From the NCBI GenBank assembly GCA_030920305.1, contig JARLUB010000001.1, forward strand, positions 186,001-250,000: a stretch of DNA of 64,000 nt. Direction: 5' to 3'. Source of the stretch: Eubacteriales bacterium SKADARSKE-1. GTDB taxonomy: Bacteria > Bacillota > Clostridia > Oscillospirales > Acutalibacteraceae. The notes beneath the pieces were generated by a model that worked only from the letters and a program-made list of their open reading frames with translations, was not told the DNA's origin and ran no database searches. Shown one piece after another: positions 54,500 to 60,071 of the stretch. Every line of letters begins with the position of its first letter. Position 1 is the stretch's first letter. The translations under genes were made by a program, and so were the position numbers.

Positions 54500-54529
54500 A
54501 TTATAATAGTTCAAAAGCACAATTGTCAA
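54500..54529 (-). promoter_or_regulatory. ABC-transporter promoter
   Basis: On the minus strand TTGACA-N18-TATAAT, both boxes perfect. Confidence 0.75.
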
Positions 54530-54704
54530 ATATCTTCTAGATACACAAGAAGGTGCTGTTGCTTAATATTTTTTAAAATTTTTACAAATATTAAAATTAT
54601 ACAAACGTATTTAAATATATTGTTATAATTATATAGCGAAAAAGTCCAAAAGTCAAGAATTAATCAACTGATATTTTGTTAAAAATAAAACATATCAAAT
54701 TTAG

Positions 54705-54733
54705 TTGACCACCAATAAATTTTTATTTATAAT
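54705..54733 (+). promoter_or_regulatory. asnS promoter
   Basis: TTGACC-N17-TATAAT, start point near 54740, with a 76-base leader. Confidence 0.7.
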
Positions 54734-54754
54734 GAAAAATAGATTTAAGTAAAG

Positions 54755-54819
54755 AAGGGTGGGAAACCGTGTGGGTGTTACCTTAAATTTTAGGGTTATT
54801 ATCCATGCTTAAAGTATGA
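54755..54819 (+). promoter_or_regulatory. asnS leader with a T-box-like core and a four-codon upstream ORF
   Basis: AAGGGTGGGAAACCGTG (about 54754-54770) resembles the T-box antiterminator signature AGGGTGGnACCGCG, but the leader is too short for a specifier stem and no terminator follows. A mini-ORF ATG-CTT-AAA-GTA-TGA (54805-54819) overlaps the asnS ATG. No clear Shine-Dalgarno precedes asnS. Confidence 0.3.
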
Positions 54820-56210
54820 AAAGAACTGAAATATCAAGCTTATATAAAAATGTGAGTTTGTATTCGAACAAGAATGTTACAATTTGTGGGTGGGTAAAAA
54901 CGATTCGAAACTCTAAAGTTTTAGGGTTTATAGATTTAAATGATGGAAGTTATTTTAAAGGGGTTCAGGTAGTTTTTTTAGAAGAAAATTTAGAAAATTT
55001 TAAAGACGTTTCAAAGTTAAATGTTGGTGCTTCAATTTGTGTTGAAGGGATACTTGAAGAGACACCGGATGCAAAACAGCCATTTGAAATAAAAGCAAAA
55101 AAAGTAATTATAGAAGGCGAATCCACTAGTGATTACCCACTTCAAAAAAAGCGGCATACAATGGAATATTTAAGAACTATAGCTCATTTAAGACCTAGAA
55201 CCAATACTTTTGGTGCAGCATTTAGGGTAAGGTCAGCGGCAGCTTTTGCTATACATAAATTTTTTAATGAAAACGGATTTGTCTATGCACATACACCAAT
55301 TATTACAGGAAGTGACTGTGAAGGTGCTGGCGAAATGTTTACTGTAAGTGCGCTTGAACTTGATGAGCTTCCGAAAAAAGAGGATGGGAAAGTAGATTTT
55401 TCTAAAGATTTCTTTCAAAAACATACATCTCTTACGGTTTCAGGTCAATTAGAAGGTGAATGTATGGCAATGGCCTTAGGTAAAATTTACACATTTGGTC
55501 CAACCTTTAGAGCCGAGAAATCGTATACCCAAAGGCATGCAGCAGAATTTTGGATGATAGAACCTGAAATGGCATTTGCAGATTTAGCAGACAATAGAGA
55601 AATAGCAGAAAAAATGATTAAATTCATTATAAATTATGTTTTAGAAAATTGCTCTGAAGACATGAAGTTTTTTAATGAGTTTTTTGATAAAGATTTAATT
55701 GAACGCCTGTCAAGCATAGTAACGTCTGATTTTGGAGTGGTTACATATACTGACGCTATTGAGATTTTAGAAAAGAATAACGAAAACTTTGAGTATAAAG
55801 TTTCTTGGGGAATAGATTTACAAACAGAGCACGAAAGGTATTTAACTGAACAAATATATAAAAAACCTTTATTTGTAATTAATTATCCTAAAGAAATAAA
55901 ATCTTTTTACATGCGTGAAAATGAAGATGGCAAAACAGTAGCGGCAATGGATTTACTTGTACCAGGTATTGGCGAAATTATAGGGGGCAGTCAGCGCGAA
56001 GAGAGGCTCGATAAAATTCTTGCTAGAATGGAAGAATTGAAACTTAATGAAGAAGATTACTGGTGGTATTTAGACCTTCGGCGTTATGGCACTGCTACTC
56101 ATTCAGGGTTTGGCCTTGGCTTTGAAAGGCTTATTATGTATTTGACAGGAATTCAAAATATACGAGATGTGCTGCCATTCCCAAGAACAACAGGTGTTGC
56201 AGAGTTTTAG
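54816..56210 (+). CDS. asnS: Asparaginyl-tRNA synthetase
   Basis: Class IIb synthetase charging tRNA-Asn. Seen: an N-terminal OB fold with [63 protein letters not shown]-type motif 1 region, motif 2 [26 protein letters not shown]-type and motif 3 [15 protein letters not shown] with DVLPFPR. It is 464 residues long, as usual, and the AsnRS-specific pattern separates it from AspRS. ATG 54816 lacks an obvious ribosome site, but earlier starts in frame are blocked. Single-gene unit. Confidence 0.95.
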
Positions 56211-56294
56211 TTTTTAGCTTTTGTGGTTATAACTCCTTATTTGAGCTTCTATAATGTGAAGAAACGACTAAGAAAGTCCTGAAGGAGTACTATA

Positions 56295-57734
56295 ATGAAC
56301 TTAGTAAAGCGATTTATTTCAACTATTCTGAGTTTGTCTTTTTTTGGACCTGGGGTATCAGCTGCGGGATTTGCATTAAACTACGAGGAATTTTTACCCA
56401 AAAGCAATGATTTTGGTACTGAAGTATTTTATTGTGCAGAAAAAAGCGGAGAATTAACAGATTATTTGTCGACAAAAAGGTTGTGGCTTAGAATGTTGGA
56501 ACTAAGACTAAAAAATGATTATGAAAAGTTTAAATCATATGGATTAAATTTAGATATGTCTCGAGGAAAGCCCTGCAAGGAGCAAATAAATTTATCAAAG
56601 GATATGTTAGATATCATTACGAGTGAATCAGACTGTAAGGCTGCAAATGGAGTGGACTGTTGCAACTATGGTGTGGTTGATGGGATACCAGAAGCTAAGA
56701 AGTTGTTTTCTGATATTTTAGGTATGTCTTCTGAGAGCATAATAGTTGGAGGCAATTCTAGCCTTAATATGATGTTCGATACAATATCGTGTTTTATGTT
56801 TAGCGGTGTAAATGAAAATGACCCATGGATAAAACAAGGTAAAATAAAATTTTTGTGCCCAAGCCCTGGGTATGATCGGCATTTTGCAATTTTAGAGTAC
56901 TTTAATATAGAGCCAGTTGTAGTGCCGATGACTAAAACTGGCCCTGATATGGATATGATAGAGCATTTTGTTTCAACTGATGAAAAAGTAAAAGGGATTT
57001 GGTGTGTGCCTAAGTATTCAAATCCGCAAGGAATAACATATTCGGATGAAACTGTTAGGCGACTTGCAGCATTAAAACCAAAAGCATCTGATTTTAAAAT
57101 ATTTTGGGATAATGCCTACGCAATCCATGATATAAGAGATGAAGGTGAAAACCTTTTAAATATAATGGAGGAGAGTAAAAAGTATAATAATGAAAACCTA
57201 CCAATAATTTTTTGTTCTACTTCTAAAATTACGTTTCCGGGAGCAGGGGTTGCAGCACTGGGTGCATCAGGGTCAAATTTGGAAATCTTAAGAAAAAAGT
57301 ATTCTATTCAAACAATAGGTTATGATAAATTAAATCAATTGAGGCATGTAAAATTCTTAAAAGATTTTAATAATATTTTAGGGCATATGGAAAAGCACAG
57401 AAAAATTTTAGAACCTAAATTTGATGTGGTTTTAGGTCATTTGCAAAAAGAGTTTGCTGAAAGTAAGCTTGTAACTTGGAATGAACCCAAAGGTGGGTAT
57501 TTTGTCAGTGTTAATGTGGTGAATGGCTGTGCTAAAAGGGTGGTTAGCCTATGTAAAGAGGCTGGGCTTGTATTAACTCCAGCTGGCGCGACTTATCCGA
57601 AGGGGCACGATTATGACGACAGTAATATAAGAATAGCACCGTCATATCCAAGCATTTCAGAGCTTGATATGGCGATGCAACTATTTTGTTTATGTGTAAA
57701 ACTTGCAATGGTTGAAAAAGAGCTAGAAACTTGA
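56295..57734 (+). CDS. PLP-dependent aminotransferase (PF12897-like) with an N-terminal signal peptide
   Basis: Fold-type I aminotransferase body from about residue 68: LDMSRGKPCKEQINLS, YGVVDGIPEAK, VGGNSSLNMMFDTI, FLCPSPGYDRHFAI, CVPKYSNPQGITYSDETV, IFWDNAYAIHD (Asp272, Tyr275) and FCSTSKITFPGAG (PLP Lys311). Relatives are cytosolic and start close to this body at about 420-430 residues. Here about 60 extra residues precede it, beginning MNLVKRFISTILSLSFFGPG and VSAAGFA, a Sec-type signal peptide like those of the small exported proteins in this window. ATG 56295 has GAAGGAGTACTATA; no later Met has a ribosome site. Substrate not assignable; terminator at 57753. Confidence 0.8.
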   Translation: MNLVKRFISTILSLSFFGPGVSAAGFALNYEEFLPKSNDFGTEVFYCAEKSGELTDYLSTKRLWLRMLELRLKNDYEKFKSYGLNLDMSRGKPCKEQINLSKDMLDIITSESDCKAANGVDCCNYGVVDGIPEAKKLFSDILGMSSESIIVGGNSSLNMMFDTISCFMFSGVNENDPWIKQGKIKFLCPSPGYDRHFAILEYFNIEPVVVPMTKTGPDMDMIEHFVSTDEKVKGIWCVPKYSNPQGITYSDETVRRLAALKPKASDFKIFWDNAYAIHDIRDEGENLLNIMEESKKYNNENLPIIFCSTSKITFPGAGVAALGASGSNLEILRKKYSIQTIGYDKLNQLRHVKFLKDFNNILGHMEKHRKILEPKFDVVLGHLQKEFAESKLVTWNEPKGGYFVSVNVVNGCAKRVVSLCKEAGLVLTPAGATYPKGHDYDDSNIRIAPSYPSISELDMAMQLFCLCVKLAMVEKELET

Positions 57735-57752
57735 TAGGTTAAAATGTTAGCT

Positions 57753-57787
57753 AAAAACCCCTCCAGATATGCTCTGGAGGGGTTTTT
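57753..57787. terminator. Bidirectional terminator
   Basis: AAAAACCCCTCCAGA pairs perfectly (15 bp) with its complement around TATGC. Serves the aminotransferase gene and, from the other side, the minus-strand exported-protein genes. Confidence 0.9.
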
Positions 57788-57866
57788 ATATTTAATTAAA
57801 TTACATCTGACGTGCAATAATATAACCAGCCAGAGCGTGAAGAAAATTTGGTGAAGTTCGAGATTA

Positions 57867-58262
57867 TTATTTGGAACAAGACCTAAGTCTATTTGTTAAA
57901 ATCATTAAGCCAGTAAATAAACCAAAATCATCAACCTTATCTGAAACAATAGTTAAAGAGGTACCTAAAGCAAAATTAGAAAGCTTGGCAATGCAGATAC
58001 AGCTTGCTAATATAAGACACACCGCATCAATAGCTACATGAGCCACTCGAGCAGCTTGAAGTGGCCAGGAAGTCTTTGAAGCAGGTTGTTGAGATTGAGT
58101 TTTAGCAGAAGCCTCTTGGTTCTTATTGTAAACATTTTCAGTGACTACTAGGGTTTGGGATTGTGTATTTTCAGTTTTTGAGCCATCGGCAAAAATTGAA
58201 ATGGCACCCATGGAACTTATTAACATAGCTCCGGTTAGAATACAAGATAATATTTTTTTCAT
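57867..58262 (-). CDS. Small exported/membrane protein, paralogue of 58287
   Basis: Unrecognised 131-residue protein: signal peptide MKKILSCILTGAMLISS (to about residue 26, FADGSK), a Ser/Thr/Gln linker containing KTQSQQPASKTSW, a membrane span (about 74-94) and a second hydrophobic stretch (about 95-123). The leader and the SQxPASK motif are shared with the adjacent gene at 58287, but the bodies differ. ATG 58262 follows AGGAGGAAAATAAA, 24 bases after the previous gene, so the two form an operon. Confidence 0.7.
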   Translation of the reverse strand: MKKILSCILTGAMLISSMGAISIFADGSKTENTQSQTLVVTENVYNKNQEASAKTQSQQPASKTSWPLQAARVAHVAIDAVCLILASCICIAKLSNFALGTSLTIVSDKVDDFGLFTGLMILTNRLRSCSK

Positions 58263-58286
58263 TTTATTTTCCTCCTATTTATTTAA

Positions 58287-58802
58287 TTATTTTTTAGGTC
58301 GATTGTAAATGTCTTGAGCAAGCCTAACGACTTCTAAAGTATGGTGTGCAAAGGAAACAACATGGTTAGCGGTAGCAATATTCATAAAAAGTCTGAAGGG
58401 GTTGGCACCTGTAATAGCCATGGCAACGCCACTAAGACAAACAACAGAAGCCGAAACACCAGTAACAGCTGCAATACCAGTGACAACAGGTACTAGGGGG
58501 AAATCTAGTAATGTAGAAGCAATTGCAGAAATACCCGCAAGGCCACCTCCAACGATAATAATAGATGCAGCGCCTTTTACACCTTCTACAAGCGACTCAT
58601 TACTCCAAAAGGACTTTGAAGCTGGTTTTTGAGACTTTGCTTTGGTGGAAGTTTCTTTGCTTTTATGGTTATTGCTTGCAGTGGTAGCTACGGTTCTAGG
58701 TTTGGTATAAGAACTTTTCGAGCCATAGGCAAAGGTTGAAAACGTACACATAGAACTTACTAACATAGCTCCAATTAAAATACATGATAATAATTTTTTC
58801 AT
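58287..58802 (-). CDS. Small exported/membrane protein, paralogue of 57867
   Basis: 171 residues: signal peptide MKKLLSCILIGAMLVSS (to about residue 26), a Lys/Ser/Thr linker with KAKSQKPASKSFW, then a Gly/Ala/Val-rich hydrophobic region (about 77-135) that can form two spans, and a hydrophilic tail with HH and RPKK end. It has no recognised domain. ATG 58802 follows AGGAGAAAAACAA. The Gly-rich repeated valine/alanine helices might insert into membranes. First gene of the pair; no clear promoter in the 58803-59005 gap. Confidence 0.7.
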   Translation of the reverse strand: MKKLLSCILIGAMLVSSMCTFSTFAYGSKSSYTKPRTVATTASNNHKSKETSTKAKSQKPASKSFWSNESLVEGVKGAASIIIVGGGLAGISAIASTLLDFPLVPVVTGIAAVTGVSASVVCLSGVAMAITGANPFRLFMNIATANHVVSFAHHTLEVVRLAQDIYNRPKK

Positions 58803-59006
58803 TTGTTTTTCTCCTAAATTAGATTTTTAACTTATGGTATTTAAAAATCCTAAAATTAACCCTAATAATTTTATCATGAGATGTGAAGTTTATGATTCTA
58901 ATTTGGAATTATAAGGCAAATTCGTATATTATTAATACTTTTTTAATAAATTGATTTAGTAATTTACTCAAATATGCCAAGGGGGGGTTATGAATAGACT
59001 CGCATA

Positions 59007-59039
59007 AAAAACCCTCCGGATGATTTCCGGAGGGTTTTT
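59007..59039. terminator. Terminator after the exported gene at 59044
   Basis: AAAAACCCTCCGGA pairs perfectly (14 bp) with TCCGGAGGGTTTTT around TGATT. The rest of the 241-base gap 58803-59043 is AT-rich with no recognised feature. Confidence 0.9.
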
Positions 59040-59043
59040 AGCA

Positions 59044-59400
59044 TCAAACCAAGTTGTTGTGTGTTTCACTTTGTGGAAAATAATTATAGCGATTAGGGGC
59101 AATAATATTACGAATAAAAGCAGAACGTATAGCTGCAATACAAAGAAAAGCGGTGCAAAGCGCAGAACAAAGCGCAGCGCCCCCACTAATAGCAAAAAGT
59201 ATCATAAGATTATCAAATATATTATCGCTACTTACAGTTGGAATTTTAGGGTTTTCGTGTGGAGGAATTAGATCTAATGTCTGTGAAAGTGACGAGGAGT
59301 CTGTAATGTTTGCATCGGGCGTTTGGGCAGAAGCTGTGAGTGCTCCAGTTGAACATATCAGTATAGTGAGAATTAGAAGGCTCGATAGTGTTTTTTTCAT
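59044..59400 (-). CDS. Small exported/membrane protein
   Basis: 118 residues: signal peptide MKKTLSSLLILTILICS with cleavage near TASAQ (about residue 25), a Pro/Ser linker (27-60), one hydrophobic segment (about 63-92) containing three Cys, and a short basic tail. Same plan as the proteins at 12376, 16282, 18751, 57867 and 58287. No domain recognised. ATG 59400 follows AAAGGAGC. Own promoter (59454-59481) and terminator (59007-59039). Confidence 0.7.
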   Translation of the reverse strand: MKKTLSSLLILTILICSTGALTASAQTPDANITDSSSLSQTLDLIPPHENPKIPTVSSDNIFDNLMILFAISGGAALCSALCTAFLCIAAIRSAFIRNIIAPNRYNYFPQSETHNNLV

Positions 59401-59453
59401 TTGAAAATGCTCCTTTATAGATTTAAAGTAAAGTTTTTACAAATACTGTATTT

Positions 59454-59481
59454 AGTATACCACAAAGGAAAATATTTACAA
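59454..59481 (-). promoter_or_regulatory. Promoter of the exported protein at 59044
   Basis: On the minus strand TTGTAA-N16-TATACT, about 50 bases before the ATG. Confidence 0.45.
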
Positions 59482-59530
59482 TTACAAATGAAAAAATTAA
59501 ATTTATTTACAATTTTTTATAGTATTAAAA

Positions 59531-59577
59531 TATCGGCCAACCACACCCATTAGACAAAAGGTTGTGGTTGGTCGATA
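59531..59577 (-). terminator. Hairpin spanning the nrdG stop codon
   Basis: TATCGGCCAACCACACCC (59531-59548) pairs with 59560-59577 with one interruption. The loop contains the nrdG stop, and the minus-strand sequence beyond is GATATTTTAAT. It is probably the nrd operon terminator. Confidence 0.5.
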
Positions 59578-60071
59578 AAAATTGGAGATTCAGTTTCTAA
59601 TGATTTTTTCACATCAATAATTCTTTGATTTTCGGAACCACGAAATTTTAAAAGCAAATTTTTTTTCTCAATTTCAAATGGACCATCGACTAAAATGTCA
59701 ACATTTTTAAGAAGTTTTTTCCAATGAGGATTTGCATCAAATCCTTTTTTTAGGTCTTCAAATAAGTACCCTGTATATGACATAACGCTAAGGCCCATTT
59801 CATGAGACCTTTTTGCTATTTCTGAAAAAGCTTCGGCTTGTAAAAATGGTTCTCCACCAGAAAAAGTGACGCCTGAAAGAAGTGGGTTTTTCTTTATTTT
59901 TTCAATGATGTCAAATATATTTTGATCATAACCCGCCTCAGGGTCAAATGTTTGAGGGTTGTGGCAGCCTTTACATCTGTGTGGACAGCCCTGCGAAAAA
60001 ATAACAAATCGAAGCCCGGGCCCGTCTACGATTGATTCTTCAATTAACCCAGATAGTCTTATTTTATGCAT
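59550..60071 (-). CDS. nrdG: Anaerobic ribonucleotide reductase activating protein NrdG
   Basis: Radical-SAM enzyme that generates the glycyl radical on NrdD. Seen: GLIEESIVDGPGLRFVIFSQGCPHRCKGCHNPQTFD-type start with the CxxxCxxC cluster motif (about residues 30-37), VTFSGGEPFLQAEAFSEIA and DILVDGPFEIEKK. It is 173 residues long, as usual. It starts 11 bases after the nrdD stop on the same strand, so both are expressed together from the NrdR-type promoter at 62478. Its 3' end is embedded in a hairpin. Confidence 0.96.
   Translation of the reverse strand: MHKIRLSGLIEESIVDGPGLRFVIFSQGCPHRCKGCHNPQTFDPEAGYDQNIFDIIEKIKKNPLLSGVTFSGGEPFLQAEAFSEIAKRSHEMGLSVMSYTGYLFEDLKKGFDANPHWKKLLKNVDILVDGPFEIEKKNLLLKFRGSENQRIIDVKKSLETESPIFIDQPQPFV

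Follow-up and report, generated by a model that had tools for sequence, protein, structure and literature searches.

The closest solved relative by sequence of the protein described here is Rv3722c (PDB 5C6U, 6U78, and 6U7A, codes that the accessible part of PMC7181641 confirms), a member of the same family that gave 388 bits to 5C6U and 6U78 over residues 65 to 475 of our protein. The same partial text names Lys257 and Arg141 of Rv3722c as the PLP lysine and the substrate arginine and gives secreted as one of several annotations of the protein. Rv3722c is also reported as a secreted protein in PMC7947218, the accessible main text of which does not contain the term "signal peptide." By alignment, both residues are shared with our protein, an apparent fusion of a signal peptide with an aspartate aminotransferase (hereafter, the fusion). 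Rv3722c has no counterpart of fusion residues 1 to 53, and the match starts at residue 10 of the 5C6U chain.

PvdN of Pseudomonas aeruginosa binds PLP and, to our knowledge, is not a PF12897 protein. Together with PA2531 of the same species, it is an annotated aminotransferase listed as a Tat substrate in the accessible part of PMC6085387, and these two are, within that text, the nearest precedents for the fusion as an exported aminotransferase. Their signals carry the twin-arginine motif and use the Tat route, which transports folded proteins, whereas the fusion has no RR in its N terminus, its genome gave no TatC match, and Sec would be the route. An earlier note, made from the letters of this DNA alone, had called the export of a PLP enzyme very unusual; this is partly right, as the PMC6085387 excerpt puts Tat-signal aminotransferases (PvdN and PA2531) on record, but in the present case TatC was not found and the route would have to be Sec. 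Terminal reassortment of type III and type IV effectors, in which a secretion signal becomes fused to an unrelated coding sequence (Stavrinides et al. 2006, as cited in the accessible part of PMC5675462), resembles the fusion event in just this joining of a signal to unrelated coding sequence. It differs in using type III/IV signals, where we see a Sec-type signal, a Clostridia-like genome, and a conserved housekeeping enzyme as the cargo. The signals of type III and type IV effectors are those of Gram-negative bacteria. The GS-like effectors of plant-parasitic nematodes, according to the accessible part of PMC5919673, are likewise a housekeeping enzyme that gained a signal peptide, but they belong to a eukaryote and involved gene duplication and a changed activity, whereas the search gave no second copy of the fusion enzyme, whose active site is unaltered. 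Among the titles and abstract openings listed from open-licence papers, we found no report of a Sec-exported aspartate aminotransferase or of signal-peptide capture by a bacterial housekeeping enzyme, which is weak evidence of absence.

The window, the whole stretch of 64,000 nucleotides that was analysed, contains an intact plus-strand ORF at 56295–57734 that encodes 479 aa and has no stop over its 479 codons. Residues 68 to 475 match NF053594, the type Ic aspartate aminotransferases (615.9 bits against a curated cut-off of 435), and residues 70 to 476 match PF12897 (508.3 bits against 27); over its whole domain the ORF is a plain member of this family. The features of the locus are as follows, where donor denotes either of two genes of the same genome whose 5′ ends resemble that of the fusion.

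54705–54733, plus strand: promoter-like site (TTGACC, 17 nt, TATAAT), putative operon promoter upstream of asnS; a consensus match only, with 11 of 12 consensus bases
54816–56210, plus strand: asnS, asparagine–tRNA ligase, upstream of the fusion (NF003037, 677 bits)
56211–56284, plus strand: spacer of 74 bp between asnS and the module; the donor DNA match begins after it
56282–56287, plus strand: Shine–Dalgarno sequence AAGGAG, 7 nt from the ATG at 56295; the donor DNA homology starts within it (56285)
56295–56375, plus strand: signal peptide, residues 1–27, with n-region MNLVKR, h-region at about residues 7–17, helix breaker GPG, and possible cleavage after VSA23 or GFA27, as judged from sequence only
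56376–56444, plus strand: linker, residues 28–50, homologous to the mature N terminus of the donor protein (YEE..SN......CAE) by DNA and protein matches
56445–56453, plus strand: junction, residues 51–53, past the donor DNA match and before the family's own start, by sequence comparison
56454–57731, plus strand: type Ic aspartate aminotransferase, residues 54–479, by profile, PDB-relative, and conservation matches and predicted structure; the native start position is now TTA (Leu54)
56493–56495, plus strand: internal ATG (M67) with a poor ribosome site, within helix 54–81 of the AlphaFold2 model
56877–56879, plus strand: Arg195, counterpart of the substrate-binding Arg141 of Rv3722c, by alignment and conservation
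57225–57227, plus strand: Lys311, the PLP lysine, counterpart of Lys257 of Rv3722c, by alignment and conservation
57752–57788, plus strand: terminator-like hairpin of 16 pairs, 3′ of the enzyme gene, from sequence

We compared the enzyme with 109 related loci, which consisted of 29 from a first protein search (matching 93 of 99 genomes, the own genome included) and the best 80 of 190 from a second. The aminotransferase keeps 71 of the 71 positions common to at least 97% of the others, K311 and R195 among them. When each sequence was compared with the others in this manner, all such positions were kept in 66 of 110 sequences, the fusion enzyme included. As its conservation is the same as that of ordinary members, the aspartate aminotransferase should be active. 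The closest named matches among those listed are Clostridia, e.g., Amazonia massiliensis and Anaeromassilibacillus. We also considered whether the catalytic domain is adapted to the outside of the cell and rejected the idea: its Cys content is 2.8% (mean of the relatives 2.37%, with 23 of 109 equal or higher), its net charge is −4 (relatives from −17 to 6), and its amino acid composition lies inside the range of the relatives.

The extension before the family's own start position is about 53 residues long. A signal and linker of about 60 residues had been proposed; the signal-type extension is real, and the length of 60 to 66 residues is not. An in-frame start was present in 106 of the 109 related loci, on which the start distances are based. 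The farthest start lies 36 (32 loci) or 35 (15 loci) residues before the conserved RG, and these 47 of 106 loci correspond to residue 54 or 55 of the fusion; in nine of the 106 the start is at least 50 residues before RG. Using as the criterion an 11-residue stretch with a hydropathy of at least 1.9 after the far start, none of the 109 loci had a hydrophobic extension comparable to that of the fusion, in agreement with the earlier statement that relatives lack it. Three matches that begin early in the query are not shared extensions: that of locus L100, from query residue 12, runs upstream over a stop into asnS; that of L033, from residue 32, contains one TAA and also runs upstream across a stop into asnS; and in L042, from residue 25, the upstream frame is open, but the residues are unlike the module and were not flagged as hydrophobic.

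A mis-called start is not the source of the extension. The good ribosome site that had been noted ahead of the ATG is there, and the native start codon of the family has been lost, codon 54 being TTA. An AlphaFold2 model (mean pLDDT 85.9, built on a 37-row alignment) gave residues 1 to 52 a pLDDT below 50, placed the first long helix at residues 54 to 81, and reached high confidence from about residue 61. A real start near residue 67, the outcome that the earlier note had set against its own reading, finds little in its favour: the ribosome-site-like sequence of M67, AAGG, is 12 nt away, and a start there would cut the helix and drop L65, which is conserved at the level of at least 97%. With the extension homologous to other 5′ ends, the native start gone, and poor ribosome sites at the internal starts, we rejected the mis-called start, and likewise read-through from asnS, as asnS ends at 56210 and the module has a ribosome site of its own.

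The extension together with its ribosome site (56285–56444) is homologous to the 5′ ends of two signal-peptide genes of the same genome. A DNA search of the genome with 56200–56500 found one significant second locus, C1:3276–3435, with 67% identity over 160 bp (E = 1.6e-5), and this match spans from inside the ribosome site to codon 50. At the protein level, residues 1 to 53 have matches in two ORFs (295 and 296 aa; 44% and 41% identity; E = 3e-8 and 3e-6), both of which have a signal peptide at the start and further hydrophobic segments downstream. The likeness continues past the signal peptide: residues 28 to 50 scored 47 against donor A, which none of 5,000 shuffles reached, and 36 against donor B, which two of 5,000 reached, while the best score against other signal proteins was 26; at the DNA level, the score of codons 26 to 50 against donor A was reached by none of 5,000 codon shuffles. 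As residues 28 to 50 also match and shuffles are rarely as good, the likeness is more than one of hydrophobic composition. The earlier remark that the signal resembles those of the small exported proteins in this DNA has thus held up and can be made stronger, since both DNA and protein comparisons place the extension in one such family.

The donors gave no Pfam or NCBIfam match above cut-off. They are members of a multicopy family that is clustered in the own genome. Beyond it, 148 genomes from the same family and order were searched; matches with E values up to 1 turned up in 38, every one of them weak, and the strongest (E = 0.001) extended over 24 signal-peptide positions. Viral contigs were scanned twice for donors, using the donor family and the module, and the 16 and 90 pattern matches obtained included no relative. 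The 5′ end of the fusion is thus homologous to one gene and the rest to another, with neither part common to the relatives of the other, the pattern that defines terminal reassortment. Since the extension is homologous to donor 5′ ends also past the hydrophobic part, while the native start is gone and the first long helix begins there, the extension is almost certainly a captured 5′ module consisting of ribosome site, signal peptide, and mature N terminus. A piece of about 160 bp from a lineage-specific secreted-protein gene, carrying the ribosome site, the signal peptide, and the first ~23 mature residues, would have been fused in frame at the start of the aminotransferase next to asnS, and the native start would have been lost. 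The homology, the junction, the missing native start, and the intact enzyme can each be read from sequence comparisons.

The unit runs in the order asnS, 74-bp spacer, 160-bp module, enzyme, and terminator-like hairpin. Among the 109 related loci, asnS lies upstream on the same strand in 24, as counted within fetched flanks of 1.5 or 3 kb that in some loci were ended by contig ends; six of these 24 have a measured gap between asnS and the enzyme of less than 100 bp, and in four more the enzyme match runs straight into asnS. Since the module sits between genes that are also adjacent in some relatives, it may have been inserted at the start codon or be what is left of a secreted-protein gene that was inserted there and later shortened; either would fit better than fusion by deletion. 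No repeats of at least 18 nt near both module ends were found in 54500–60000, and the repeat pairs that span it are distant and imperfect.

Abrupt 5′ breaks do occur in the own genome, as the mosaic 5′ parts of the third gene of the donor clusters indicate. From about nucleotide 180 onwards, the C1 copy of this gene has 100% identity with those of C12:4996 and C17, against 30 to 68% before; between the C12:4996 and C17 copies the switch lies inside the part coding for the signal peptide, with 51 to 74% identity before it; and the C1 copy does not differ anywhere from the second C12 copy. The four copies (L158:4188–5048, L159:4069–4929 on the minus strand, L160:4996–5856, and L161:1673–2533) agree fully along most of the gene and for 600 bp or more past it, and their 5′ parts are 30 to 74% identical in five of six pairs. 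Near the donor clusters are phage-type tyrosine integrases and a serine recombinase (L158:7504–8664, L161:4989–6149, L159:459–1613, and L160:8316–10196; domains were tested for L158 and L160, and L161 and L159 were judged by likeness). The presence of these genes suggests that the donor clusters are located on repeated mobile elements.

The signal type is widespread in this genome. A search with an alignment of signals, which itself held the fusion and a donor, gave 61 hits, of which 52 were used, representing 46 distinct N termini with the fusion and the donors included, in a genome of 1.38 Mb without detected TatC. The lineage thus apparently has a large secretome of its own, made up of mostly unknown proteins. 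Among the 42 proteins of at least 120 aa, 89 pairs had at least 60% identity in residues 1 to 30, and for 67 of these 89, blastp at E up to 0.01 matched nothing past residue 80. Fast divergence of the mature parts could explain part of this pattern of shared signals on unlike bodies. Neighbouring genes offer close-up examples: window 16282–16959 and 18215–18736 have nearly the same signal and different mature parts, and 57867–58262 and 58287–58802, both on the minus strand, are 72% identical over their 5′ 207 nt and unlike in their 3′ parts. A long proline-rich signal-peptide protein is present in three nearly identical copies (L164, L165, and L159:7533–10205; C1:283596, C17:113444, and C12:285532), 890 aa where complete and read over 530 aa in the other two.

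Seventeen of the 45 other signal proteins were scanned for Pfam domains, and two had one above cut-off. The protein at window 18733–19338 (plus strand) contains a J domain (PF00226, 31.1 bits against 27.8) behind a signal peptide of the type that its neighbours carry. A hydrophobic segment starting at residue 79 separates signal and domain, and if the topology inferred from it is correct, the J domain would remain in the cytosol. The second, L195:312–1766 (minus strand), has the signal-peptide type of its own genome at the N terminus of an AAA+ ATPase (PF07724, 41.2 bits) and gave below-cut-off matches to the C-terminal part of ClpV/ClpB models and a weak one, also below cut-off, to Torsin; a hydrophobic segment between its signal and domain was suggested by eye only, and its strongest scored segment lies inside the domain. 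The fusion, unlike the J-domain protein, has no hydrophobic segment between signal and domain. A later hydrophobic segment is found in 36 of the 46 signal proteins and is absent in the fusion (best 1.36), so the topology of the fusion differs from that of the donors.

The N terminus of the fusion has the features of a Sec signal: the positive n-region MNLVKR, an h-region with a hydropathy of 1.99 over 11 residues, and the small residues VSA and GFA; a breaker of the GPG type before VSA is in the usual place for a helix breaker. It is also homologous to signals of secreted proteins of the same genome, the donors themselves being predicted to be secreted from their sequences. Its hydropathy is the fourth lowest of the 46. 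Over 50 codons, the module and donor A differ with dN 0.37 and dS 0.98, and the differences at codon positions 1, 2, and 3 number 23, 9, and 20, as expected if the frame was kept as protein. In a null model with 52 random substitutions, 5.8% of copies were stop-free, 7.5% kept the observed amino acid identity, 0.7% did both, and 3.1% stayed open with at least the observed hydropathy; the model is crude, and these figures, like dN and dS, pool what changed before capture, what changed after it, and what changed in the donor. When half as many substitutions were placed, 16.5% of copies were stop-free, so an open frame taken by itself says little. The 43 other N termini, with the fusion and the donors left out, were used to train a signal HMM, which gave the fusion 11.6 bits (E = 0.013 for 1,200 proteins); outside the training set, the window ORF that came next reached 1.6 bits, and the seven window ORFs with higher scores were in training. 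We take the N terminus for a Sec signal that works but is not strong.

With such a captured signal, a housekeeping enzyme whose normal place is inside the cell may be sent out of it. The wide use of the signal type in the own genome, the kept frame, and the flexible linker support export, whereas the catalytic domain being like those of the relatives, the weak h-region, the lack of the later hydrophobic segment that the donors have, and the fusion being the only aspartate aminotransferase found in the genome count against it. Full export would leave the cytosol without this activity, but that search is imperfect and does not prove absence: the PF00155 genome search can miss members and missed the fusion itself, which hmmscan scores at 37.7 bits, and a protein search of the own genome gave three matches, with details only for the row of the fusion. 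The other class I/II enzymes found were DapL (TIGR03542, 526.6 bits against 364.7) and, both below cut-offs, a PseC-like sugar aminotransferase and a decarboxylase-like protein. Residues 1 to 30 of the fusion contain no RR, and the own genome gave no match to TatC (PF00902; 11 of 14 controls positive in a genome search that can miss members); the fusion thus does not look like a Tat substrate, and with TatC not found, export would have to go by Sec. Four aspartate or oxaloacetate routes were covered, with no match in the own genome to the aspartate/glutamate symporter PF00375 (7 of 14 controls positive), asparaginase PF00710 (10 of 14), PEP carboxykinase PF01293 (5 of 14), or the PYC/OADA domain of pyruvate carboxylase PF02436 (7 of 14). 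It is thus uncertain whether the cytosol needs the reaction and whether it could supply it.

An origin of the junction in an assembly that joined unrelated pieces, or an ORF that has gone out of use, is very improbable. The genome is a draft of 23 contigs, and the junction is seen in one assembly only, with no second genome of the genus among the relatives listed; against this, the module is only 67% identical to the nearest donor and so is not a collapsed identical repeat, asnS precedes the enzyme in 24 of the 109 relatives too, the unit has a promoter-like site before it and a terminator-like hairpin after it, and 479 codons without a stop keep every one of the conserved positions. Dual localisation, with the long form exported and inefficient targeting or a second start (L58 TTG, L63 TTG, or M67 ATG) leaving a cytosolic form, deserves somewhat more credit and is still quite unlikely. 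In-frame TTG and ATG codons do stand at residues 58 to 67, and a marginal signal on a single gene would favour such a split, but the ribosome sites look poor by eye (GGAG is 14 nt from L58), the damage that a start at M67 would do to the first helix and L65 argues against that codon, and only in one of 106 relatives is the farthest start 23 residues before RG, as M67 is, the other 105 being at 26 or more.

The alternative to which we give the most weight, while holding it somewhat unlikely, is that the module provided a new start only, i.e., ribosome site and first codons, and that the signal has decayed or is outcompeted by fast folding, so that the enzyme stays in the cytosol as the aspartate aminotransferase of the cell. 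It would account for the weak h-region with GPG, whose hydropathy of 1.99 compares with 2.95 and 2.98 in the donors, for the fully conserved enzyme with no sign of adaptation to the outside, and for the lack of a cytosolic replacement in our imperfect search; the presence of LL-diaminopimelate aminotransferase (TIGR03542) moreover implies that aspartate is probably needed inside. Yet the frame, the n-region charge, the small-residue c-region (VSA, GFA), and the hydrophobic run have been kept despite a DNA difference of 35%, the signal HMM still recognises the N terminus, hydropathies lower still (1.83 and 1.91) occur in two window proteins with this signal type, and with neither PF01293 nor PF02436 matched, the supply of oxaloacetate for a cytosolic enzyme is uncertain. 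Weighing these, we favour Sec targeting to the envelope over both a vestigial signal and dual localisation, with a confidence near the midpoint of the scale, and give the export of a substantial part of the enzyme about an even chance. Under Sec targeting, translation would begin at 56295 and the Sec machinery would engage the N terminus. Some or all of the enzyme would reach the envelope or the exterior, and a linker of ~27 to 30 residues would leave the folded enzyme free there. PLP would be acquired after translocation, and the enzyme could then interconvert aspartate or glutamate and their keto acids or use amino acids of the host or the envelope as substrates. The explanation as a whole, module capture followed by a Sec-driven move of some or all of the enzyme to the envelope or the exterior, strikes us as marginally more probable than its failure.

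As a wider and rather doubtful conjecture, the lineage might build new secreted proteins by shuffling, with 5′ modules (ribosome site, signal peptide, and linker) placed in front of unrelated genes. This would be terminal reassortment in a Gram-positive, Sec-based form, and here it would have moved a core amino acid enzyme with an intact active site out of the cytosol, to fold and take up PLP after Sec transport and work as an extracytoplasmic enzyme. Should export prove real, one fusion would have relocated a core metabolic enzyme, fully conserved, across the membrane, with donor relatives still in the same genome, in a bacterium without a detected Tat system; two questions could then be tested, namely how an enzyme with a cofactor manages Sec export and whether secretomes are built in bacteria by reuse of 5′ modules outside type III/IV systems. 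If export fails, the locus would be a natural experiment on a cytosolic enzyme tolerating a signal peptide.
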